This document shows, piece by piece, positions 8,699 through 20,432 of a DNA stretch of 64,000 nucleotides. This DNA is from Thermodesulfobacterium sp. TA1. Lineage in GTDB: Bacteria; Desulfobacterota; Thermodesulfobacteria; Thermodesulfobacteriales; Thermodesulfobacteriaceae. The translations under genes and the position numbers were made by a program. A model generated the notes under the pieces. The model did no database searches, was not told where the DNA came from, and saw only the letters and a program-made list of their open reading frames with translations. Positions within the stretch are counted from its first letter, which is position 1, and every line of letters begins with the position of its first letter. The DNA lies in the NCBI RefSeq assembly GCF_008630935.1, contig NZ_CP043908.1, forward strand, positions 1,612,001 through 1,676,000, written 5' to 3'.

Positions 8699-9151
8699 AT
8701 GAAAAAGATTAAGGCTTTGCCTTTATTTTTTGAATTAAACCAGCCTTTTCGCAAACATTTAGGCCTTATTCCTAATACCCTTCTCAAAAAATTAGACAAA
8801 GTCTATAACTGCCTTGGGAGTTCCAACCCTAAAAAAATCCGTCCTTGTATTTTTTGGAAAGAAGCCGAGACAGGTTACTATAAACTTGTATTTCTAACCG
8901 CCTCTTATATATCCCCTCTAAAAATCGATTTATCTCTATGTTTTCAGAAACAAAAAATTTGTTCCAAATTTCCTTTTTATAATACTTCTTATGTCATTTC
9001 TCCTTTAGGTAAACCCCTTTGTATATCCCTTAAATCTCCCGAAGACCTACTTTCTGATTTTATCTATTGTGGAAGCTGTGAAGATTTAGAAATATTAGAC
9101 ACACTTATTGTAAACCATTTTTACTCTTCTTCTGATACTACAAAACGATGA
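8699..9151 (+). CDS. Small Cys-rich protein, possible PemK/MazF-like fold, first gene of Calp module
   Basis: A 150-residue protein I do not firmly recognise. The segment KKIRPCIFWKE, a short turn, then KLVFLTASYISPLKI, and later YNTSYVISPLGKP, resembles the RPvlVl, TS and SYv strands of PemK/MazF toxins. Seven cysteines (38, 50, 81, 88, 108, 124, 127), including CGSC at 124-127, are unusual for that family. Its last codons overlap the start of the sigma-like gene by 4 bp (ATGA), so the two are translationally coupled. A role as an extra partner or regulator of the Calp complex is inference. A stand-alone toxin is another possibility. No strong Shine-Dalgarno precedes it. Confidence 0.6.
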   Translation: MKKIKALPLFFELNQPFRKHLGLIPNTLLKKLDKVYNCLGSSNPKKIRPCIFWKEAETGYYKLVFLTASYISPLKIDLSLCFQKQKICSKFPFYNTSYVISPLGKPLCISLKSPEDLLSDFIYCGSCEDLEILDTLIVNHFYSSSDTTKR

Positions 9152-9846
9152 AAGATTATAAACCGATATTACAAAAATTATTAAACAACCAGTGTTCACC
9201 TAAAGATTTTGAATTACTAAAGAAAGACTTTAAGAAACTGCTCAAAAGAGCTTTTAAAACCCATTTTACCTCTTATATAGAAAAAGTTTTTGCTAAATAT
9301 TATGGTCCTGATTATCTTGAAGCTTTATCCCAAGAGCTTTTTGTAAAAATCGTATATCAAAAAGATACCCTTCTTAGTCTAAACTTTATTCACGAAAACT
9401 ATCTCTTTGCTATGGTTGTAAACTTGATATACTATCATCTTTCTTCAGGGTTTAGGGTATTGGAAAAAGAAGTAAACTTTGAGGACCTTTTTTCTCAAAA
9501 AGACCAAGAAGAAAAGGAACTAAAGCTTGAAGAAAGTATACCCCAAGTTTTTATTAATTACTTAGAAGACCAAACCCTTCTACATCTTAGTTTTTCTTTA
9601 AAACAATCTTTAACCAAAAAAGAACTTGAAACCTTATGCTGGTATATATTAAAGAATATCTATAAACATAAAAATCAAACCTCCGAAAAAAGAGATGCCT
9701 TTTATAAAAGATGGGAAAGATTAAAGCCTAAGCTTAAAGAAATTTTAGTAAGAGAATTGTTAGAGGACACAAATACCTATAAATTTTTTGAGGTTATTAA
9801 GTCAGAAATTTGTGAAAAACTTGATTTATTAAAAAGTAAGAAATAA
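9148..9846 (+). CDS. calpS: ECF-like sigma factor, CalpS candidate
   Basis: A 232-residue protein with an ECF sigma layout. A region 2-like helix block (EALSQELFVKIV, then YLFAMVVNLIYYHLSS, compare the usual LxQEvF and RNLxxDHLR) lies at about 55-105. An acidic linker follows. A region 4-like block with a recognition-helix candidate lies at about 140-205 (SLTKKELETLCWYILK, then RDAFYKRWERLKPKLKEIL). It sits beside CalpT- and CalpL-like genes in a type III operon, matching the CalpL-CalpT-CalpS system described from Sulfurihydrogenibium. Predicted role: released by CalpT cleavage to redirect RNA polymerase. Primary-sequence similarity to sigma factors is weak, so context carries much of the call. 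Confidence 0.7.
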   Translation: MKDYKPILQKLLNNQCSPKDFELLKKDFKKLLKRAFKTHFTSYIEKVFAKYYGPDYLEALSQELFVKIVYQKDTLLSLNFIHENYLFAMVVNLIYYHLSSGFRVLEKEVNFEDLFSQKDQEEKELKLEESIPQVFINYLEDQTLLHLSFSLKQSLTKKELETLCWYILKNIYKHKNQTSEKRDAFYKRWERLKPKLKEILVRELLEDTNTYKFFEVIKSEICEKLDLLKSKK

Positions 9847-9882: not shown

Positions 9883-10701
9883 ATGCCTTTGGAAGACCAG
9901 ATAAAAAAAGATTTTGAGTTATACAGAACTATTTCATCCGAAGAAATTGAATTGCTACCTGTTAAGAATCCTCAACCTGTCAAGGTTGGGGACTTGAGGG
10001 TTATTCAAGCTATGCCACCCGTTTATTTTGTAATCGTAGAAGAAATGTCTTTTTATCAAGAAAAACTTTACAAAGCGGTCGTGCTAACTGAAGAGATTTC
10101 TTTAGGTTGGCTTTCAAAAGAAACCCCTCTTTTGAGAATTCCAGAGAGTAAAACTTTATTGGTAGCATTGCCGTTTTGGATTTATTTAGAAGATCTTTTC
10201 GTTAGCAAGTTCCTAAAGAAAATAGGGACATTGAAGATGGAAGATATAGAAAAGCTTCTATCTTACGCAGAAAAAACTAATATCCCTAAAACCCTTCAAG
10301 GAGAATACATTCGTTTAGTCATGCAACGGCTTGCACCTTTCAATACGGCAAGTCTTCTTAATTATCTCGAAAAACTTGAAGAATACGAAGAATCTCCTCA
10401 AATAATTAAGCTTTCTCCTTCTATAGAAGAAACTTTTAAAGAATATTGCTTTCAAAAAGCAGCTTCTTCTAAAGAAGTATTTAAAGGGAAAAACTTTTTG
10501 GCTTTAATAGAAAAACTTCAGTCTTATGCGAGACTAATTATTTATTTACCCCAAGAATTTATAGGAAAAAACGTTTCTATCTGGATAAAAGGCCAAAAGT
10601 TTTTTGAAGGAGAATTGAAAAAAGATAAACTTATTTTAGAGCCCCTTCCAGCCCTTCTTGATTATTCATTTCTTGAGGAGGAGCTTGATGTTCAGGTTTG
10701 A
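9883..10701 (+). CDS. calpT: CalpT-like sigma-sequestering substrate
   Basis: A 272-residue protein between the sigma-like gene and the Lon-SAVED gene. The N-terminal part has a possible MazF-like barrel (VKVGDLRVIQ, YFVIVEE, YKAVVLTEE) at about 33-100. A helical middle follows (116-170), then a flexible-looking stretch with Ala193-Ala194-Ser195-Ser196, and a C-terminal part of about 77 residues. In the described Calp system the Lon protease cuts CalpT after activation, splitting it into a large and a small piece. The size here and the small-residue stretch fit that, but the actual cleavage site is inferred. It overlaps the start of calpL by 14 bp. Confidence 0.72.
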   Translation: MPLEDQIKKDFELYRTISSEEIELLPVKNPQPVKVGDLRVIQAMPPVYFVIVEEMSFYQEKLYKAVVLTEEISLGWLSKETPLLRIPESKTLLVALPFWIYLEDLFVSKFLKKIGTLKMEDIEKLLSYAEKTNIPKTLQGEYIRLVMQRLAPFNTASLLNYLEKLEEYEESPQIIKLSPSIEETFKEYCFQKAASSKEVFKGKNFLALIEKLQSYARLIIYLPQEFIGKNVSIWIKGQKFFEGELKKDKLILEPLPALLDYSFLEEELDVQV

Positions 10702-12166
10702 AGTCTTTGAAGAGGATCATCTTTTAAAGTTTCTTTGGCAGGGTCTGCTTGATGAATACATAGAGGATTTATTTTTAAGGTGGGACCTTTTTTCTCCTAA
10801 AATCCAATTTGAGTTAATACATTATGTAAAGACACGTTTAAAGGATGTTATTAGCCCCAAAATTATAGCTCGCGCCCTAAATATAAAAAACTCTGATGCC
10901 CAAAAAATACTTACAGCTAAAGAAAAAATCTTTGAAGTCTTGCTTGTAGAAAAAGAGGTAGAAAAGGCTAAAATTTCAGTAAAACCCTATAAAGGTTTGG
11001 CTATTCCTGAAACCTCTAAAATCATAACCAACCTTCCTGAATTAAGAAGTCCTCTATTAACGATAAAAAAATTTTTAGGAACAAGTTTTGCGGTTTTTTT
11101 TGAAACCTATTTTACCGGGAAAAGTTTTATGCTTCCTTTAGCGGTAGCACTTTCTATAGCTAAAATTCCAGAAGATTTAAGGTTTACAGGTGCTTTAAAT
11201 TCCAAAGGAGACCTTTTAGAGGTAGACCACATTAAAGAAAAATTAAATTACACTAAACAAAATAACCTTAGACTAATAACTCCATTACAAGTAAAACATT
11301 TTAACGCCATTAAAACCTATCTTGAAAACGATAGATGGGATATTCCTTTTTATGTAACCTCATCAGGAAAAGAAGAGTTTAATATGTTTTTAAATTCCTA
11401 TACAGGGACTAAAGTTTTAGCTGAGTTTGAAATCTTAAAAGGTCTTGAACTTTTTTATAATCTTCAAGAAGACAATTTTTATATAATCACAGGACAACTT
11501 AACTCTAAAGAAGACTGGGAAAAAACCTGTAAAACTTTTGCTGAAAAAATAGACCGTATAAAAACCTGCTTGCCTGGTATAAAAACCTATCATTTAGGCT
11601 TAAGAGGGCCTGTTTCCCTTGGTTTTGCTTTTGGGGTTCTTTTTTCTCATTTTGACCCCTTTGTTTTTTATCATTATCAAACGATAGAAGGAGAAACTAA
11701 ATACCATCCTATAAAGGTCGAAGAGCCAAGATTCTTTAAAGAAAGGCTAAAGGTTTATCAATACTTAAAACCTTCTTTTGAAAAAAAGGGAGAAGATTTA
11801 GTGATTGTGCTCAACTTTTCTCACCATGAACCAACCGCAGATGTTAAAAAGTATGTTTCCTCAATTTTAAGAGAGCCATCTTTTCTTATTCTTGAAACGG
11901 AGTTTAAAGGAAATTTACCGATAGAAACTTTTCGTGAAGTGGCAAAAGAAGCTGCAAGCTTTATCCAAGATGTCAGAGAAAAATATTCTTTTAATAGTTA
12001 TCACTTTTTCTTCTCATGTCCTGTTGTTGTAGCTTTTATGATAGGGCTTGCCTTTGGTCATTATGTAGATGGCCAGATTTACAACTTTCAAAAAGGTGAA
12101 AATTTATATCAACCGGTTATCGATTTTAAATTTTTAAGAAAAATTAGAGAAAAAAGGTCAGATTAG
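10688..12166 (+). CDS. calpL: CRISPR-associated Lon protease with SAVED sensor, CalpL
   Basis: Predicted cyclic-oligoadenylate-activated protease. I choose the ATG at 10688 because GAGGAGG lies just upstream; the frame is also open to an ATG at 10658. From 10688 the protein has 492 residues. The Lon-type catalytic core has Ser146 in FTGKSFMLPLAVAL and Lys183 in VDHIKEKL, the Ser-Lys dyad in the usual sequence setting (GALNSKGDLLEVDHIKEKL is Lon-like). The C-terminal SAVED domain (about 230-492) shows YHLGLRGPVSLGFAFGVL and VVVAFMIGLAFGHYVDGQ. In the described system binding of cA4 makes CalpL oligomerise and cut CalpT. No AAA+ ATPase domain is present. Confidence 0.88.
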   Translation: MFRFEVFEEDHLLKFLWQGLLDEYIEDLFLRWDLFSPKIQFELIHYVKTRLKDVISPKIIARALNIKNSDAQKILTAKEKIFEVLLVEKEVEKAKISVKPYKGLAIPETSKIITNLPELRSPLLTIKKFLGTSFAVFFETYFTGKSFMLPLAVALSIAKIPEDLRFTGALNSKGDLLEVDHIKEKLNYTKQNNLRLITPLQVKHFNAIKTYLENDRWDIPFYVTSSGKEEFNMFLNSYTGTKVLAEFEILKGLELFYNLQEDNFYIITGQLNSKEDWEKTCKTFAEKIDRIKTCLPGIKTYHLGLRGPVSLGFAFGVLFSHFDPFVFYHYQTIEGETKYHPIKVEEPRFFKERLKVYQYLKPSFEKKGEDLVIVLNFSHHEPTADVKKYVSSILREPSFLILETEFKGNLPIETFREVAKEAASFIQDVREKYSFNSYHFFFSCPVVVAFMIGLAFGHYVDGQIYNFQKGENLYQPVIDFKFLRKIREKRSD

Positions 12167-12231: not shown

Positions 12232-14811
12232 ATGAAAGATCCAATCCTTTATAAAACCATTTTAGCTGCACTACTTCATGACTTAGGTAAAGTTTATCAA
12301 AGAACAGGAGAAAAATTGCCCGCTGAATTTTTAGAAAAAAATCGTGACTTATATCAGCCTAGTTATAGTGGATATTACACCCACAACCATGTGCTATATA
12401 CTGCTAAATTTATAGAAGATTTAAAAGAATTTATCCCCAATTATTTTTTACAAAAAGAAAACGCAGATTATTCGCTTATTAACTTAGCTGCTAAACATCA
12501 TAAACCTGAGTCAATTTGGCAATTAATCATTAGTGAAGCCGATCAATTAAGTAGTGGATACGAAAGGAGAAGGTTTATAGAAGAAACCAATCCTGAAAAA
12601 GGAGAAACCTCAGCAGATGTCCCACTCCTAAGTCTTTTTGAGGATGTTAGTTTAGACAATAAATGGAAAGAAGGGAAATTAGAGAACTACAAATTTGCCT
12701 ACAACCTTGATAAATTAAAACCTGAAAGTATTTTCCCAACCGATAGAATTGGGAAGATGGTTTCCAAAGAAAAATATAAAAATATCTGGGAAAACTTCAT
12801 CCAAAAATTCAAACAGCTTTCTTCTCAAAAAGGTAGGCCTGAACTTTGGTTAGAAAGTTTAAATACTTTGATGTTAGAATATTTTTTATTTGTGCCTTCG
12901 GCAACGGTTGGAATCTCCTCTACTAATAAGTTCGAGAAAATCCCAACTGACATCTCGCTTTATGATCATGCTTATTTCACCGCAAGCCTTGCCTCAACGT
13001 TATATTTATATCATACAAAAACCAACACCCTTTCAGAAAGTCATGTCCAAAATAGAAAAGAAGAAAAATTTCTATTTATAGAAGGCAATTTCTATGGTAT
13101 CCAAAAATTTATTTTTGCCTCTGGAGGAGAAACAAGAAAATGGGCTGCCAAAATTTTAAGAGGCCGCTCTTTTATGGTATCTCTTTACACAGAATTAGTA
13201 GCTGATTACCTTTTGAGAGAATTAGGTTTGCCTTTTGTCAATTTACTTTTTTCTGCTGCCGGCAAATTTTTACTTTTAGTCCCTAATATAGAAGAAATAA
13301 AAACTAAACTTAAAGAATTAGAGCTAAAAATCAACGATTGGTTTTACGACCATTATTTTGGAGAAGCCTCCATAGGTTTAGTATATACAGAGGCTAAACC
13401 TGAAGAGTTATTATATGAAAATGGATACAATAACCTCATGAAACGTTTAGGTCGCAAATCCGAAGAAAAGAAGTACCAAAAATTTGACCTTTTAAGATAT
13501 GGTGGCGTGATAAAAAATTATTTTGAAAAATTTTCAGGAGCAGGTGTTTGTAAGATTTGTGATAAGAGACCTGCTGAAATTCAAGAAAAATTCATAAAAG
13601 ATGAACAAGAGGAAATTATTCACGTTTGTCGTTTATGTAATGACCATAAAAAATTAGGTGAGTCTTTAGTAAAAAAGAAATATATCTTAGTTTTTACTGA
13701 AAAAAATAAAAACATGTTAAATTCTATTCCTATTTTTAATAAATACTGGATAACCTTTGAAGACAACCCTGATGTTATTCGAGGTTTACTCTCAGAAAAA
13801 GGCCTTATTCATATCTGGGATTTATCTTTACCTAAGGATAAAAAAGAAAACAATAAAGACATCTTTGCTAAAAAGTTTATTAATGCTTATGTACCCTACG
13901 ATGAAGAAAGCAAAGAAATTTTAACCTTAGAGGAACTTGCTAAAAAATCATTAACCAAAGGGGACGATAATAAGATTTACGGAATAGAAGCACTTGGAGT
14001 AATTAAAGCAGATGTAGATAATCTGGGAACAATTTTCTATCGCGGACTGCCTGAAAGCAAACGTACTTTTTCTCGTTATTTAACTCTATCTCGTATGTTA
14101 AACCTATTCTTTGCCTATTATTTACCTTATCTTTGTCAAACCCAATACAAATTAATATATAATGTATTCTCCGGAGGAGACGACCTATTTTTTATAGGCC
14201 CATGGAAAGAGTGCTATGCTTTTGCTTTAAAAGTTAACGAGCTTTTTAAGAAGTATGTTTGTAATAATTCTGCTTTTACCATATCAGCCGGATATGTTCT
14301 TACCAAACCTAACCTCCCGATTATTGAACTTGCAGAAAAAACAGAAAACGCACTTTCCCAAGCCAAAAAAGATGGGAAAAATAGATTAAACATTTTTAGA
14401 AAAAGTATATCCTGGGAAGACATTCCCGAGTTAGAAAATCTCAAAGATTATCTTATATCTCTTTGTAGCAACCAAAAAGAAATTTTGAGTAGAAGTTATT
14501 TGTACAAACTCAACCAAATCCTTGAAATGGTTGAAGAAGCTAAAAGAATGATAAGTATGGCAGATAAAAACACAAATTCAAAGATTGACTTAAAGGAGTT
14601 AGAAAATCTTTTATGGCCGAGTTTATTTTATTATTTTACTGTCAGAAATTTTGATAAAAAAAGGTTATTAAAAAAAGAGGAAAGAGCACAAAAGATGGAA
14701 GATTTTATAATAAAAATTAAAAACGCTTTAGAAAAACACGGAGAGGCTTTTAGATTGCCTCTCTGGCAAATACTATACTCTACAAGGAGGGCAGGATATG
14801 ACTCAAAGTAA
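12232..14811 (+). CDS. cas10: Type III-A Cas10/Csm1
   Basis: Large subunit of the Csm effector. It makes cyclic oligoadenylate and may cut ssDNA when the complex binds target RNA. The 859-residue protein has an N-terminal HD nuclease motif His16-Asp17 (ALLHDLGKVYQRTG), a zinc-binding pair of CxxC motifs at Cys440/443 and Cys466/469, a first Palm region near KADVDNLG, and an intact GGDD at 648-651. A helical D4 domain ends the protein. The intact HD and GGDD sites imply both activities. The gene starts after AAAGGAG, 65 bp behind calpL, and overlaps csm2 by 14 bp. Confidence 0.95.
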   Translation: MKDPILYKTILAALLHDLGKVYQRTGEKLPAEFLEKNRDLYQPSYSGYYTHNHVLYTAKFIEDLKEFIPNYFLQKENADYSLINLAAKHHKPESIWQLIISEADQLSSGYERRRFIEETNPEKGETSADVPLLSLFEDVSLDNKWKEGKLENYKFAYNLDKLKPESIFPTDRIGKMVSKEKYKNIWENFIQKFKQLSSQKGRPELWLESLNTLMLEYFLFVPSATVGISSTNKFEKIPTDISLYDHAYFTASLASTLYLYHTKTNTLSESHVQNRKEEKFLFIEGNFYGIQKFIFASGGETRKWAAKILRGRSFMVSLYTELVADYLLRELGLPFVNLLFSAAGKFLLLVPNIEEIKTKLKELELKINDWFYDHYFGEASIGLVYTEAKPEELLYENGYNNLMKRLGRKSEEKKYQKFDLLRYGGVIKNYFEKFSGAGVCKICDKRPAEIQEKFIKDEQEEIIHVCRLCNDHKKLGESLVKKKYILVFTEKNKNMLNSIPIFNKYWITFEDNPDVIRGLLSEKGLIHIWDLSLPKDKKENNKDIFAKKFINAYVPYDEESKEILTLEELAKKSLTKGDDNKIYGIEALGVIKADVDNLGTIFYRGLPESKRTFSRYLTLSRMLNLFFAYYLPYLCQTQYKLIYNVFSGGDDLFFIGPWKECYAFALKVNELFKKYVCNNSAFTISAGYVLTKPNLPIIELAEKTENALSQAKKDGKNRLNIFRKSISWEDIPELENLKDYLISLCSNQKEILSRSYLYKLNQILEMVEEAKRMISMADKNTNSKIDLKELENLLWPSLFYYFTVRNFDKKRLLKKEERAQKMEDFIIKIKNALEKHGEAFRLPLWQILYSTRRAGYDSK

Positions 14812-15271
14812 ATTTAGAAACAATCAAAGTTTCAATCAAAGACAGAACTTAGACAGAAGGCAACAAGAAAATACCCAACCGTTGCCTGAAATAAAATTTT
14901 GGGAAAACAAAAAAGAAGGATTGGTAAACCCTTTACTTTTTTCTGATATAGCCTACCAATGTTCTGAAATTATTAGTAAAGATACAAAACGCAATAAACG
15001 GTCTCAATTACGTAAGTTCTATGATGAAATTTTATTATTTTACGACCGTTTAAAGGTAACAAAAGAAAGTTTTCCTCAATTTTTACCTTATATAAAATTA
15101 CTGAGAGCTAAAGCTTACTATTCCTTAGGAAGAAAACATATAAACGACGCCTTTAAAGACATGATAGAAAAATGTCTAAATCAAATTGAAACTTGGGAAG
15201 ATTTTGAAGTGTTTAAAAACTTCTTTGAGGCTTTTATGGGATTTTATCGTTATCATAGAAAGGATGATTAA
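14798..15271 (+). CDS. csm2: Csm2, small subunit of type III-A effector
   Basis: All-helical small subunit that lines the crRNA-target duplex in Csm. The 157-residue protein carries the family signature RSQLRKFYDEI followed by FLPYIKLLRAKAYYSLGR. The first 30 residues are Gln/Asn-rich and look disordered. It starts inside the end of cas10 with AAGGAGG upstream, implying coupled translation. Presence of Csm2 and Csm5-type genes marks the system as III-A rather than III-B. Confidence 0.92.
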   Translation: MTQSKFRNNQSFNQRQNLDRRQQENTQPLPEIKFWENKKEGLVNPLLFSDIAYQCSEIISKDTKRNKRSQLRKFYDEILLFYDRLKVTKESFPQFLPYIKLLRAKAYYSLGRKHINDAFKDMIEKCLNQIETWEDFEVFKNFFEAFMGFYRYHRKDD

Positions 15272-15306
15272 CACAAGATTATAATTAGAAAAAAAGGAGG
15301 TTAAGC

Positions 15307-16044
15307 ATGGAAAAAACACTTCAACTTCAAAAAATTTATCAAATTAAAGGTAAAATTAAACTTTTAACCGGTTTGCACATCGGTTCAGGTAATACTGAAA
15401 TGCATATCGGTGGGGTTGATAACTTAGTAGTTAAAAATCCCCTCACAAACGAGCCCTATATACCTGGGTCAAGCTTAAAAGGAAAAATTAGAAGTTTACT
15501 TGAATATTATCTTGGACTTCCTACTTATTCTGAAAATGTCGATCCTAATAGTGGTGGTATAACCTCTCATAAACTCTTAAACAATAATTCCATCCCAAAC
15601 GAAATTAAAGAAAAAGCAACGCTCATTTTAAAACTTTTTGGGCTTTCAGGTTCAGGAGAAGATGTTCTTAAAAAGATAGGTCCAACAAGGGTTGCCTTTG
15701 CTGATTGTTTCTTCACCGAAGATTTTAAGAAAAAAATTACCAATGAATGTTTACCGTTTACAGAAATAAAAGCCGAAAACCGTATAAACAGAATAACCGG
15801 AACCGCAGAACATCCTCGTTTTATAGAAAGAGTGCCTGCTGGAGCAGAGTTTGATTTTCAGATTACTTTAAAGATCTATAATACAGAGGATGAAAAACTT
15901 CTTGAGGCTCTATTAAAAGGGTTGAAACTTCTTGAACTTGATTACCTTGGTGGTTGTGGCTCAAGAGGATATGGGAGAATAAAATTTGAGTTTGAAGATG
16001 AAAAAATAAAAGAAAAATTCGATAAAATTCAACTTTTTACTTAA
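15307..16044 (+). CDS. csm3: Csm3, backbone RNase subunit
   Basis: RAMP subunit that forms the crRNA-binding filament and cuts target RNA at 6-nt steps. Length 245 is normal. The conserved IGGVDN segment puts the catalytic Asp at position 38. The glycine-rich YIPGSSLKGKIRSLLEYY loop follows, and a C-terminal GGCGSRGYGRIKF is present. An AAAGGAGG ribosome site precedes the ATG. Target-RNA cleavage should therefore be intact. Confidence 0.95.
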   Translation: MEKTLQLQKIYQIKGKIKLLTGLHIGSGNTEMHIGGVDNLVVKNPLTNEPYIPGSSLKGKIRSLLEYYLGLPTYSENVDPNSGGITSHKLLNNNSIPNEIKEKATLILKLFGLSGSGEDVLKKIGPTRVAFADCFFTEDFKKKITNECLPFTEIKAENRINRITGTAEHPRFIERVPAGAEFDFQITLKIYNTEDEKLLEALLKGLKLLELDYLGGCGSRGYGRIKFEFEDEKIKEKFDKIQLFT

Positions 16045-16075
16045 ATAATGTTAAAGTGTTCTTAGGAGGGGTAAG

Positions 16076-17017
16076 TTGAGAACTTATCAAATAAACATTA
16101 AACCCTTAACCGGCTTTGGAACTCCTTTAAAAGGTGACACCCTATTTGGTCAGCTTTGTTGGCAAATTCTTTATGATAAAACCTTGCTGGGTAAAGATTT
16201 AGATACCTTACTTAGTGAATATTCAACAAATCCATTTTGCATCATTTCTTCAGCTTTTCCCTACACGGATGGCAAAATATATCTCAAAAAACCGTCATTA
16301 CCGTTACACTATTTATACGATCTATCCGAAGATGACTTAATAAGCAAAAGAAAAGACTTAAAAAATCAAAAATATTTCGTTTACCAACCACCTCTCCCTC
16401 CTCTTAACAAAATCGAATATATATCCCCCTTGGATACAATTTTGAGTGAAGATGAACAGGTTAGGTGTACGATTAATAGATTTTCTGGCACAACAAGTAG
16501 AAGTGGTTTTGCTCCCTTTGTTGTGCCTAAAACCTGGTATATGACAGAGCTTGCAATTTTTGTTGGTGTAAGAGAAGACCTTCCTATTGAAGGAGTAGTT
16601 GAGGCTCTAAGAAGAATAGGAAGTTTTGGGTTTGGAAAAGATGCTACGGCTGGTTGGGGAAAATTTGAAGTTGTAAACTATAAAGAAATAAATTTTTATT
16701 CTCAAATTAAAAACACTGAAAACGCTTACTATACGCTATCACCTGTCCTTCCTGAGGAAAAGGTTAGATATATTCAAATATTTTATGAGCCTTTTTTACG
16801 TTTTGGAAGACATGGTGATGTGTTGAGCTCCTCTGCTAATCCCTTTAAAGCTCCGGTTTTATTAGCCGATGAAGGAGCTATACTAATTCCTGAAAATTTT
16901 GAAAAGAAAGCCTACATAGGAAGGGCTATATTTAACGTCTCCTCTATATTAGAAGAGGCAGTAACACAAGGATACTCTTTGGTTATACCTGTGGAGGTAA
17001 ATCATGGAAAAATATAA
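16076..17017 (+). CDS. csm4: Csm4, crRNA 5'-handle binding subunit
   Basis: RAMP protein that holds the 5' tag of the crRNA and contacts Cas10. The 313-residue protein has KPLTGFGTPLKGDTLFGQLCW near the N-terminus and the glycine-rich IGSFGFGKDATAGWGKFEV loop in the middle. The start codon is TTG, preceded by AGGAGGGG, which decides the start. It overlaps csm5 by 14 bp. Confidence 0.92.
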   Translation: MRTYQINIKPLTGFGTPLKGDTLFGQLCWQILYDKTLLGKDLDTLLSEYSTNPFCIISSAFPYTDGKIYLKKPSLPLHYLYDLSEDDLISKRKDLKNQKYFVYQPPLPPLNKIEYISPLDTILSEDEQVRCTINRFSGTTSRSGFAPFVVPKTWYMTELAIFVGVREDLPIEGVVEALRRIGSFGFGKDATAGWGKFEVVNYKEINFYSQIKNTENAYYTLSPVLPEEKVRYIQIFYEPFLRFGRHGDVLSSSANPFKAPVLLADEGAILIPENFEKKAYIGRAIFNVSSILEEAVTQGYSLVIPVEVNHGKI

Positions 17018-18149
17018 AATAACCATCGAAGTTTTAAGCCCTATTCATATAGGATGTGATGAAGTATTTTCTCCTCTTGAATTTGTAATAGACAGCCAGA
17101 AACAAATTTTAATAAAGTTTAATCTTTTCGACTTATTAGAAAAGTTATCTCCAGAAGAAAGGACTGAGCTTAACAAAATCTCAAACAAAAAAGATGTATC
17201 TGCTTTAGTGGATTTATATAAATTTTATGCCTATCGGATAAAAGATAGAGTTAAAAGACTCTCTAACATTAAACAATATGCTATACCTTCTGAGCTTGCT
17301 AAAAGATATGAAGAAGTCTTAAAATTACCTCAAAAAGATATTATTCAAAATTTTAACAATTTTGAAATCCCAAGAACTTATTTTAACCCTTACACAGACC
17401 AACCTATAATACCAGGAAGCTCCCTCAAAGGCACTTTAAGAACAGGTTATTTAGAGGCTTTACTAAGACAAAAGATAGAAGAAAAAAGCATAAAAGATTT
17501 AGCCCAAAAGATATCCCAGATCAACGTAAACACTCGTCCTAAAGAAATAAACGGATTATTCAATGAATTAGAAAAAAATTTGTTAAAATATAACAACCCT
17601 TCAGAAGACCCCTTTGGGTCGTTAAAAATTTCTGACTTAAATCTTAAAAACCCGATAGATACTAAAATTTTATATAAAGTAAACGTTAGTAAAGAAAAAG
17701 GAGAACCTAAGGGGAGACTTACCCTTCCTATAGAGGTTATTCCTCCAGGGGCTTATTTTGAAGGCACTATGGAAATAACACAAGCTACAAATAGAGATAA
17801 AATTAATTTTGATGAACTTAAAAACAGTATACATAAACATTTTATATCTATCTTAGAAAAAGAGTATAAGCTTCATAAAAACTTAAACTTTAAAATGTTT
17901 GTGTTAAACCCTTTTCATAAAACCCAAATTAAAGAAAAGAAAGCTGTTTTTATCAAACTTGGTAAACATTCCGGTGCAGAGGCTATGACCATAGAGGGTA
18001 TAAGAAAAATCCTAATCAAAAAAGCTGGAGGGAGAAAAGAATATAGCACATCACCAACGACCATCTGGCTTGCAAGTGAAAGAAAACAAGATATATCAAA
18101 TGCTATGCCCTTTGGATGGGCTATTCTTTATTTTGAGAAGATTGTATGA
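17004..18149 (+). CDS. csm5: Csm5, crRNA 3'-end capping subunit
   Basis: RAMP protein at the 3' end of the crRNA. The 381-residue protein starts with ITIEVLSPIHIGCDEVFSP and has the Csm5 segment PIIPGSSLKGTLRTGYLEALL, with a glycine/lysine-rich FIKLGKHSGAEAMTIEG near the C-terminus. GGAGGT precedes the ATG within csm4. Its stop overlaps the cas6 start (ATGA). Confidence 0.93.
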   Translation: MEKYKITIEVLSPIHIGCDEVFSPLEFVIDSQKQILIKFNLFDLLEKLSPEERTELNKISNKKDVSALVDLYKFYAYRIKDRVKRLSNIKQYAIPSELAKRYEEVLKLPQKDIIQNFNNFEIPRTYFNPYTDQPIIPGSSLKGTLRTGYLEALLRQKIEEKSIKDLAQKISQINVNTRPKEINGLFNELEKNLLKYNNPSEDPFGSLKISDLNLKNPIDTKILYKVNVSKEKGEPKGRLTLPIEVIPPGAYFEGTMEITQATNRDKINFDELKNSIHKHFISILEKEYKLHKNLNFKMFVLNPFHKTQIKEKKAVFIKLGKHSGAEAMTIEGIRKILIKKAGGRKEYSTSPTTIWLASERKQDISNAMPFGWAILYFEKIV

Positions 18150-19060
18150 TAGTAGAAATACCCTATAAAATTTTAAACCTTGACTGTGAGCCGGAAGATG
18201 AACTTTATTTACCCTCTTTTAAAGGGTCCTCTTTTAGAGGGGTTATAGGAAGGACTTTAAGAAAAGCTCTTTGTGTGTTAAAAACCTACAAAGATTGTCG
18301 TCAATGTCCTCTTTATCTAAATTGCTACTATGCCTATATTTTTGAAACCATACCTAATCCTGAGAAGCCTCTACCTTTTAATTTGCACAAATATCCTTCT
18401 ATACCTCATCCCTTTGTTATAAAACCACCAGAAGAAAAAAAAACTTTATACAAAAAAGGCGAAACCTTTTCTATTAAAATCGTTCTAATTGGAAAGGCTA
18501 CAGCTTACGAACCTCATTTTATTCTTGCTATGCGTTTAGCAGGAGAACATGGAATAGGAAAAGGCAATAGGAAATTTTTTATTACTAACTATTCCTCTAC
18601 GGGTATCTTTAAACAGTCTATAACCTTTGACCTTAACAGTAACCATCCGTCTATTTCTGAGCTTACTTTGCAACTTCTTACACCTTTAAGACTAATCTAC
18701 GGAAAAAAATTGGTAAAAAACTTAGAATTTCATCATATTATAAGAGCGCTTTTAAGAAGGATTACCATTTTATACTATTTTCATGTTTCTGAAAACATAC
18801 CAGAGATACCGGTTAAAGGGTTAATAAATCTTGCGGAAAAGATAAAAACAGTTCAATCAAACCTTAAATGGTTTGATTGGGAGCGATATTCTTATAGACA
18901 GAACCGTAGGATGGTTCTCGGGGGCCTAATAGGAGATATAACCTTTGCTGGAGAACTTAGCCCTTTTTATACCTTGCTTAAGGCAGGGGAGATATTCCAT
19001 GCAGGTAAAAATACCTCCTTTGGGCTTGGAAAATATAAAATCCTAACCTCAGGAGAGTAG
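18146..19060 (+). CDS. cas6: Cas6 pre-crRNA processing endoribonuclease
   Basis: Predicted to cut the CRISPR transcript within each repeat and leave the 8-nt tag ATTGCGAC. The 304-residue RAMP protein is of the longer Cas6 class with a Cys motif (CRQCPLYLNCYYAYIFE) after the first strand-helix unit and FKGSSFRGVIGRTLRKAL near the N-terminus. The C-terminal glycine-rich loop is NTSFGLGKYKIL. It overlaps csm5 by 4 bp and is 1 bp from csx1. Catalytic residues cannot be assigned by eye. Confidence 0.88.
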   Translation: MIVEIPYKILNLDCEPEDELYLPSFKGSSFRGVIGRTLRKALCVLKTYKDCRQCPLYLNCYYAYIFETIPNPEKPLPFNLHKYPSIPHPFVIKPPEEKKTLYKKGETFSIKIVLIGKATAYEPHFILAMRLAGEHGIGKGNRKFFITNYSSTGIFKQSITFDLNSNHPSISELTLQLLTPLRLIYGKKLVKNLEFHHIIRALLRRITILYYFHVSENIPEIPVKGLINLAEKIKTVQSNLKWFDWERYSYRQNRRMVLGGLIGDITFAGELSPFYTLLKAGEIFHAGKNTSFGLGKYKILTSGE

Positions 19061-19061
19061 T

Positions 19062-20432
19062 ATGAAGCTAATTTATCAGATAGGAAGGCTTGATGCAAAA
19101 AGTTTTGAAAACATTAATTTTTTTTATAAAGATAAAGAATATTCTGCTCAGCTTAGCTCTTTTGTTTTAAAAGAACATTTTGAAGAAAATAAAGAAAAAT
19201 CTAAGGTAATTCTTATTTATCCAGTAAGTCTTTTAATAAACAAATCTTTTCTTAACAATACCCAATTTCCTGAGGTTTTAAAAAATACAATAAACAATAT
19301 TTTAACTAACCCAGAAAATTATTTCGTAAATCCTCGTAAATACTTTATGGAACATCCTCATTCAAAAATAGCTGATGATTTTATAATAATTCACAGCATA
19401 GGACAATATGAAGGGATTAACTTTTTCGCCACTTTAGAAGACCTTATCCTTGAAATTTTTATAGACTTGGTTTCTCGCTATCAAAAAGAGCCTTTTTCAG
19501 AGCTTTACCTTGATATTTCAAGCGGACATAATATATATGTTTCAGCCCTTCTTGAAGCAGGGAGATTATTTTTCACCTTTTACAAACTCCAGAACTTTCA
19601 TTCTAAGAACGACGATCTTCAAGTTTATATAACTTTCTCTGACCCGATTTTACCTCCATATGATAGAAAGTTTATGATTCGCGAAAAATTCCCTTTAAAG
19701 GTAAAAGCGTTTTTCCATTATCCAGAAACTCCTCATAATAACAGCCTTAATGATGGATACGGTGCTTTTGCTAAACTTTTGACCGGAGAAGCTAAAGAAT
19801 TACGAAAAAAGAAAAATTTATTAAACGAACTTTTTTCTTATGGTTATTTCTTTTACTCAGCTATCAAAAACAATACCCCACTTGTACTCTATACCTGGGA
19901 ATACCATCCAGAAGAAAAAATTGAAGAAGGTATCTCTGTTATATCAACTTTAGTAAAAGACCGATTGACTGCAAACTACCAAACGACACCAAACTTAGAT
20001 TTCAACCTATTTAGTAGTGCTTTTCTTATGTTATCTCTTTATAAAGGAATAGTTAGAGTTTTACAAACTTATAACATTTTTAAAAAAGAAGAAGTTTCCC
20101 TTACCGAAATTAAAAGTAAGTTTTTAGGTAATGATAGCCTTTATCGATGCTTTGGATTAATTCAAAACATCCCATATCTCTCTCATGAAATAAACAATAC
20201 CTTTGAAAAGGAACCGGAAAGAGGAGGAATAAACCACTTGATTACCGAAGACTACAAACTCCTGCGAGAATTTATTAAAGGAGAAAGCGACAAAATAAAC
20301 GACCGCAATTTTCTTGCTCATTGCGGTTTTGAAAGAAATTGTGTTTATGTCAGAAAAAATGAAGAAACCCTATTTATAAAATATAATAAAACGGAACTGC
20401 AAAAGATAGAAGAAATTTTAATTAAAAATTAG
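19062..20432 (+). CDS. csx1: Csx1, CARF-HEPN ancillary ribonuclease
   Basis: Predicted cyclic-oligoadenylate-activated RNase. The N-terminal CARF domain (about 1-205) contains ELYLDISSGHNIYVSALLEAGRLF. The C-terminal HEPN domain contains the catalytic Arg415-x4-His420 (DRNFLAHCGFE). At 456 residues it matches single-chain Csx1 proteins. It directly follows cas6 in the same operon, giving the system a second cOA effector beside CalpL. Csm6 is the close alternative name; the sequence looks more like Csx1. Confidence 0.88.
   Translation: MKLIYQIGRLDAKSFENINFFYKDKEYSAQLSSFVLKEHFEENKEKSKVILIYPVSLLINKSFLNNTQFPEVLKNTINNILTNPENYFVNPRKYFMEHPHSKIADDFIIIHSIGQYEGINFFATLEDLILEIFIDLVSRYQKEPFSELYLDISSGHNIYVSALLEAGRLFFTFYKLQNFHSKNDDLQVYITFSDPILPPYDRKFMIREKFPLKVKAFFHYPETPHNNSLNDGYGAFAKLLTGEAKELRKKKNLLNELFSYGYFFYSAIKNNTPLVLYTWEYHPEEKIEEGISVISTLVKDRLTANYQTTPNLDFNLFSSAFLMLSLYKGIVRVLQTYNIFKKEEVSLTEIKSKFLGNDSLYRCFGLIQNIPYLSHEINNTFEKEPERGGINHLITEDYKLLREFIKGESDKINDRNFLAHCGFERNCVYVRKNEETLFIKYNKTELQKIEEILIKN

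Follow-up and report, generated by a model that had tools for sequence, protein, structure and literature searches.

The Calp complex has been described as tripartite (PMC11417357), and the cascade that it forms is presented likewise in two further reports (PMC12751052, PMC11229360). Its three proteins function as a cascade in vitro without a fourth protein (PMC11417357, PMC12751052). A 23-kDa fragment of one of them, CalpT, has been described as MazF-like (PMC9704534), and a MazF-like fold serves the anti-sigma factor in this operon (PMC9704534, PMC11417357). In the open literature on Calp, leaving aside a 2023 Nature paper, we found no mention of a fourth Calp protein.

We analyzed a window of 64,000 nucleotides, the whole of the stretch of Thermodesulfobacterium sp. 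TA1 DNA under study (contig NZ_CP043908.1, positions 1,612,001 to 1,676,000), in which calpS, calpT and calpL are preceded by a small open reading frame; we use the name calpX, or X, for this frame and for its family (Table 1). The order calpX-calpS-calpT-calpL followed by cas10 through csx1 shows that the Calp module in the window is complete and that it leads a type III-A operon. A first-pass annotation of the window had reported a 150-residue gene that overlaps calpS by 4 bp and carries seven cysteines, a CGSC among them, and all of this was confirmed on the sequence and the list of open reading frames. The gene starts with ATG, the overlap reads ATGA, and the cysteines are residues 38, 50, 81, 88, 108, 124 and 127, with CGSC at 124-127. 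No clear promoter was seen 5' of calpX in the window.

Table 1. Coordinates within the window of calpX, its conserved codons and the neighboring genes
Feature	Position	Strand	Evidence
calpX, MazF/PemK-like, C4 site, 150 aa	8699..9151	+	ORF; homologues 5' of calpS; predicted fold
R48-P49 codons (RP aligned with MazF RP)	8840..8845	+	47/47 non-redundant rows; hhalign register
T67 codon (aligned with MazF catalytic Thr region)	8897..8899	+	Thr 33, Ser 14 among 47
C81-x6-C88, putative metal site, half 1	8939..8962	+	C81 47/47, C88 45/47
C124-G-S-C127, putative metal site, half 2	9068..9079	+	46/47 each, spacing always 2
calpS, sigma-like protein	9148..9846	+	PADLOC HTH PDLC01153 1e-20
calpT, anti-sigma, degenerate MazF-like N-terminal region	9883..10701	+	PADLOC PDLC01140 (Unk_02) 7.6e-35, CRISPR-T 7.2e-22; conservation
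calpL, Lon-SAVED protease	10688..12166	+	PADLOC CRISPR-Lon 3.9e-121; PDB 7qda/8b0r 3.6e-31
type III-A operon: cas10, csm2, csm3, csm4, csm5, cas6, csx1 (CARF-HEPN)	12232..20432	+	PADLOC

We investigated whether homologues of calpX neighbor calpS, which had been set beforehand as a test of the proposal that calpX is a Calp component. Scans with the calpX protein alone returned no relatives from genome, viral, phage or plasmid collections, and a one-sequence search of the window's phylum gave two real matches, the rest being noise, for instance frames broken by multiple stops. A genome scan with CalpL added three loci, two of them from Thermodesulfobacteriota MAGs and the third from an Aquificaceae MAG, and in each of the three a calpX relative lay directly 5' of calpS. 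The relative from the same genus was 49% identical to the window protein and kept all seven cysteines, and relatives in three other loci were 29-41% identical; in one low-coverage MAG (L064) both calpX and calpS were interrupted by apparent frameshifts, with the CGxC end readable in another frame. When profiles were applied to the loci of Aquificota and Thermodesulfobacteriota, 67 of the 74 calpX matches shared the strand of calpS and lay directly 5' of it, the commonest arrangement being a 4-bp overlap (18 cases); these locus counts are slightly inflated, since a few loci (L066 and L106, for instance) represent one and the same place. Of the remaining seven matches, four were the first members of tandem pairs, two lay at contig ends and one was a truncated remnant. 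Conversely, calpX preceded 66 of the 69 calpS matches, and the three exceptions were a calpS split by an apparent frameshift, a contig end and L196, a true S-T-L locus in the middle of a contig that has no calpX, from which it follows that calpX was dispensable for CalpS at least once. Identity of calpX between the two phyla was about 20-30% with the position of the gene unchanged, and close pairs had dN/dS values of 0.12-0.30, indicating purifying selection. Taken together, these results demonstrate that calpX is a near-universal fourth Calp gene in the loci examined from two phyla; it is not the "extra" gene of the first-pass annotation, being standard in these loci. The tandem duplicates occur in L111, L119, L193 and L201, with the second copy adjoining calpS in each, and the truncated remnant (L192:4604-4846) encodes 80 aa and has no other Calp genes nearby.

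The distribution of calpX was then compared to that of CalpL. CalpL-like proteins were detected with the CRISPR-Lon model in 65 of 136 Aquificota genomes, and the two genes were strongly associated across these 136 (53 with both, 12 with CalpL only, 5 with calpX only and 66 with neither; Fisher P 4e-20), and in most of the discordant genomes the locus runs into a contig end. Within the window's phylum, calpX was present in 2 of 297 genomes, both with complete Calp loci. This co-occurrence and the regular placement before calpS support the earlier suggestion that calpX is a fourth Calp component. Two loci in the middle of contigs, L108 (4886-7118) and L157 (3747-6138), carry calpT-calpL and lack both calpS and calpX, showing that calpX travels with calpS. 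Together with a lone calpL at L154:4255-5640, they make up the reduced Calp modules seen here. Other departures from the usual layout involved CalpL itself. CalpT and CalpL are naturally fused into one protein of 640 aa at L119:4738-6660, with an N run of the assembly inside the frame, and the CalpL of some loci is 560-590 aa long. The two long forms tested against Pfam (L200:5452-7143 and L199:2293-3975) have a C-terminal match to PF08960 (E 1e-20 to 2e-22), the STIV B116-like, AcrIII-1/Crn2 ring nuclease family, and would thus be Lon proteases with a built-in ring-nuclease-type domain, encoded beside calpT and calpS; L158, L159, L160, L196, L198, L204 and L207 belong to the same class by length and profile.

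The system in which Calp was first described proved to carry the gene as well. The CalpL of L102 is 100% identical to PDB 8b0r over 460 compared residues, which identifies L102 as Sulfurihydrogenibium sp. YO3AOP1 or a very close relative, and calpX lies immediately 5' of calpS there. The Sulfurihydrogenibium calpX protein is matched by the PADLOC model C3a162 (PDLC01080, E 2.3e-60), a type III CRISPR accessory family of "unknown function" for which the model states no fold, operon role or link to Calp. This model matches 17 of 50 calpX family members and misses most of the family, the window protein included. The name C3a162 presumably originated in a survey of accessory genes of type III systems from 2019. 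This family was therefore catalogued earlier, with no functional account that we could find; its MazF-fold identity and its near-universal position beside calpS appear to be new, both being undescribed in the open literature found.

A PemK/MazF-like fold for the calpX protein was suggested by two approaches that do not depend on each other. Searches of Pfam, NCBIfam and PDB sequences with the protein returned nothing, as did the calpX profile against PDB sequences, and PF02452 (PemK_toxin) was absent among the matches listed (to E 0.097) for any of 50 calpX members. An AlphaFold2 model built from four sequences was of low confidence (pLDDT 55.6, pTM 0.58). With this model Foldseek found nothing significant, its top hit being the MazF-fold toxin ToxN at E 1.3, and VIA-align returned MazF, CptN, ToxN or CcdB chains in all of its top 33 rows (Z 7.1-4.0), ahead of the first unrelated chain at Z 3.1. 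VIA Z values below 8 are weak by themselves, but the uniformity of this 33-row list of MazF-type folds is not. A second model, of the distant relative in L066, was too poor (pLDDT 44.7), and MazF was not among its weak matches. Independently of any structure model, a 50-row calpX profile was compared by hhalign to PemK proteins of Aquificota, which placed RP on RP and TT on TT with P 0.0013 when E. coli MazF was included in the set and 0.0085 when it was not. None of 200 and none of 150 shuffled-column controls reached the real score, and two disjoint halves of the calpX family gave an identical register. The list obtained with the low-confidence model and the profile alignment, which scored above all shuffles, thus point to the PemK/MazF resemblance already noted in the strand patterns, and we consider it very probable that calpX adopts this fold.

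Conservation within calpX was counted over 47 non-redundant rows. R48 and P49 were invariant, and position 67 was always Thr or Ser (47/47). In the MazF enzymes of E. coli and B. subtilis, the Arg of the RP motif and the Thr of the TT motif belong to the active site, so the aligned residues indicate that the catalytic MazF pair (Arg, Thr/Ser) is conserved in calpX. Four cysteines, C81, C88, C124 and C127, were kept in 45 or more of the rows (Table 1), giving the pattern C-x(2-9)-C plus CGxC. No His is conserved, and the zinc anti-sigma (ZAS) motif HX3CX2C is absent; the four cysteines are suggestive of a metal site, probably for zinc. The redox- or zinc-dependent switch proposed at first therefore fares differently in its two parts, since the four conserved cysteines favor a metal site and a redox switch built on all seven is weakened because C38, C50 and C108 show no conservation in the wider family. 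For comparison, the N-terminal region of CalpT is likewise MazF-like, with a GD...PLTS pattern and a Thr/Ser at position 69 in 45 of 45 rows, but in contrast to calpX its RP Arg is not conserved and no Cys is found among its well-conserved positions. No sequence similarity was detectable between the calpX and CalpT profiles (P 0.21-0.28). Judged by these alignments, the operon encodes two MazF-like proteins, calpX with the Arg kept and CalpT with the Arg lost.

Four related loci, L147, L151, L152 and L153, share a motif pair 5' of calpX, AAACG-N16-TCTGAC (AATCG in L153); with one mismatch at most allowed, a search of six genomes found it at a single further site. The pair is a candidate ECF promoter for the operon, perhaps one through which CalpS regulates its own expression, but TATAAT boxes are present 5' of calpX at many other loci (19 of 50, compared to 2.6 expected), and the window has no clear promoter there.

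The reading that we prefer, to which we give about an even chance, is that the product of calpX belongs to the Calp module as its conserved fourth part. It would be a small protein of the PemK/MazF fold, bearing a four-Cys, probably zinc, site, that is co-translated with CalpS, freed with CalpS and acts on RNA. Its observed basis is the position of the gene, its coupling to calpS, its conservation, its absence together with calpS from two loci and the invariant MazF-type pair. Under this reading the calpX protein would be produced in a fixed ratio with CalpS and would sit in or on the CalpS-CalpT complex. Cleavage of CalpT by cA4-activated CalpL would then free it together with CalpS, and it would act on RNA, by cleavage or specific binding, to give the Calp response an RNA arm beside its transcriptional arm. 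It is the conserved Arg/Thr pair that favors an action on RNA. A more ambitious version, which we regard as doubtful, is a four-part Calp in which a single proteolytic cut would release two effectors together: a sigma factor that redirects transcription, and an RNase of MazF type, carrying a metal, that redirects translation or shuts it down. This RNase might pair, by way of its MazF fold, with the degenerate MazF-like part of CalpT. Two facts speak against an essential role of calpX in sigma control: work on the three-protein cascade has been done in its absence, and L196 has calpS without it.

Three roles had been offered for calpX at the outset, a second sigma partner, a metal or redox switch and a toxin held in check, and sequence cannot separate them. 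The strongest rival to the RNA-acting role, and nearly as likely, is a purely regulatory one, in which a calpX protein with the MazF fold would bind CalpS, serving as an additional brake, a chaperone or a cofactor, and would have no RNase activity; we consider this a serious possibility that falls short of probable. MazF folds can act as protein-binding platforms, and such a role would agree with the tie of calpX to calpS rather than to calpT and calpL, as seen where calpX and calpS are both missing, and with translational coupling of the two genes. It would also match CalpT, an anti-sigma factor of the same operon with a MazF-like fold (PMC9704534, PMC11417357). The regulatory role is harder to reconcile with an RP Arg and Thr/Ser present in every calpX row, when the Arg is not conserved in the presumably non-catalytic CalpT. 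The calpX protein could instead be the toxin of a toxin-antitoxin pair, neutralized by CalpS or CalpS-CalpT and either addicting the cell to the locus or killing it once the complex is broken. The MazF-like fold with its active-site residues, the tight coupling to the next gene and the tandem copies in four loci would all suit a toxin, but the gene next to calpX is calpS and not a MazE-like gene in nearly all loci, and addiction is weak given that L196 has calpS without calpX and that the remnant in L192 stands alone; we judge this improbable. Least likely, and very improbable, is that calpX is a passive neighbor, kept in place by operon linkage and playing no part in Calp. The S-T-L locus without calpX would agree with this; a position shared between two phyla at such low identity, purifying selection, co-loss with calpS and the near absence of calpX on its own speak against it.

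Should a fourth protein prove standard in the organism of the founding system and in related organisms, the reconstitutions described in the open literature were carried out without a native component, and the picture of what follows CalpS release may be incomplete. With the RNase-like active site, it becomes testable whether type III CRISPR signaling couples transcriptional and RNA-acting responses, and likewise why two MazF-like proteins, with and without the active-site Arg, share one operon.

Compared to the MazF/PemK toxins (PF02452) and to ToxN/CptN, the calpX protein appears to have the same fold, the RP and TT motifs and the active-site Arg and Thr/Ser, and it differs in having no Pfam match, an added C-x(2-9)-C plus CGxC, and a sigma factor gene, not MazE, as its downstream neighbor. 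The Calp system of Sulfurihydrogenibium sp. YO3AOP1 was published as tripartite, with a fourth protein unmentioned (PMC11417357), and it shares with the window the CalpL, CalpT and CalpS genes, their order beside a type III cas operon, and calpX too.
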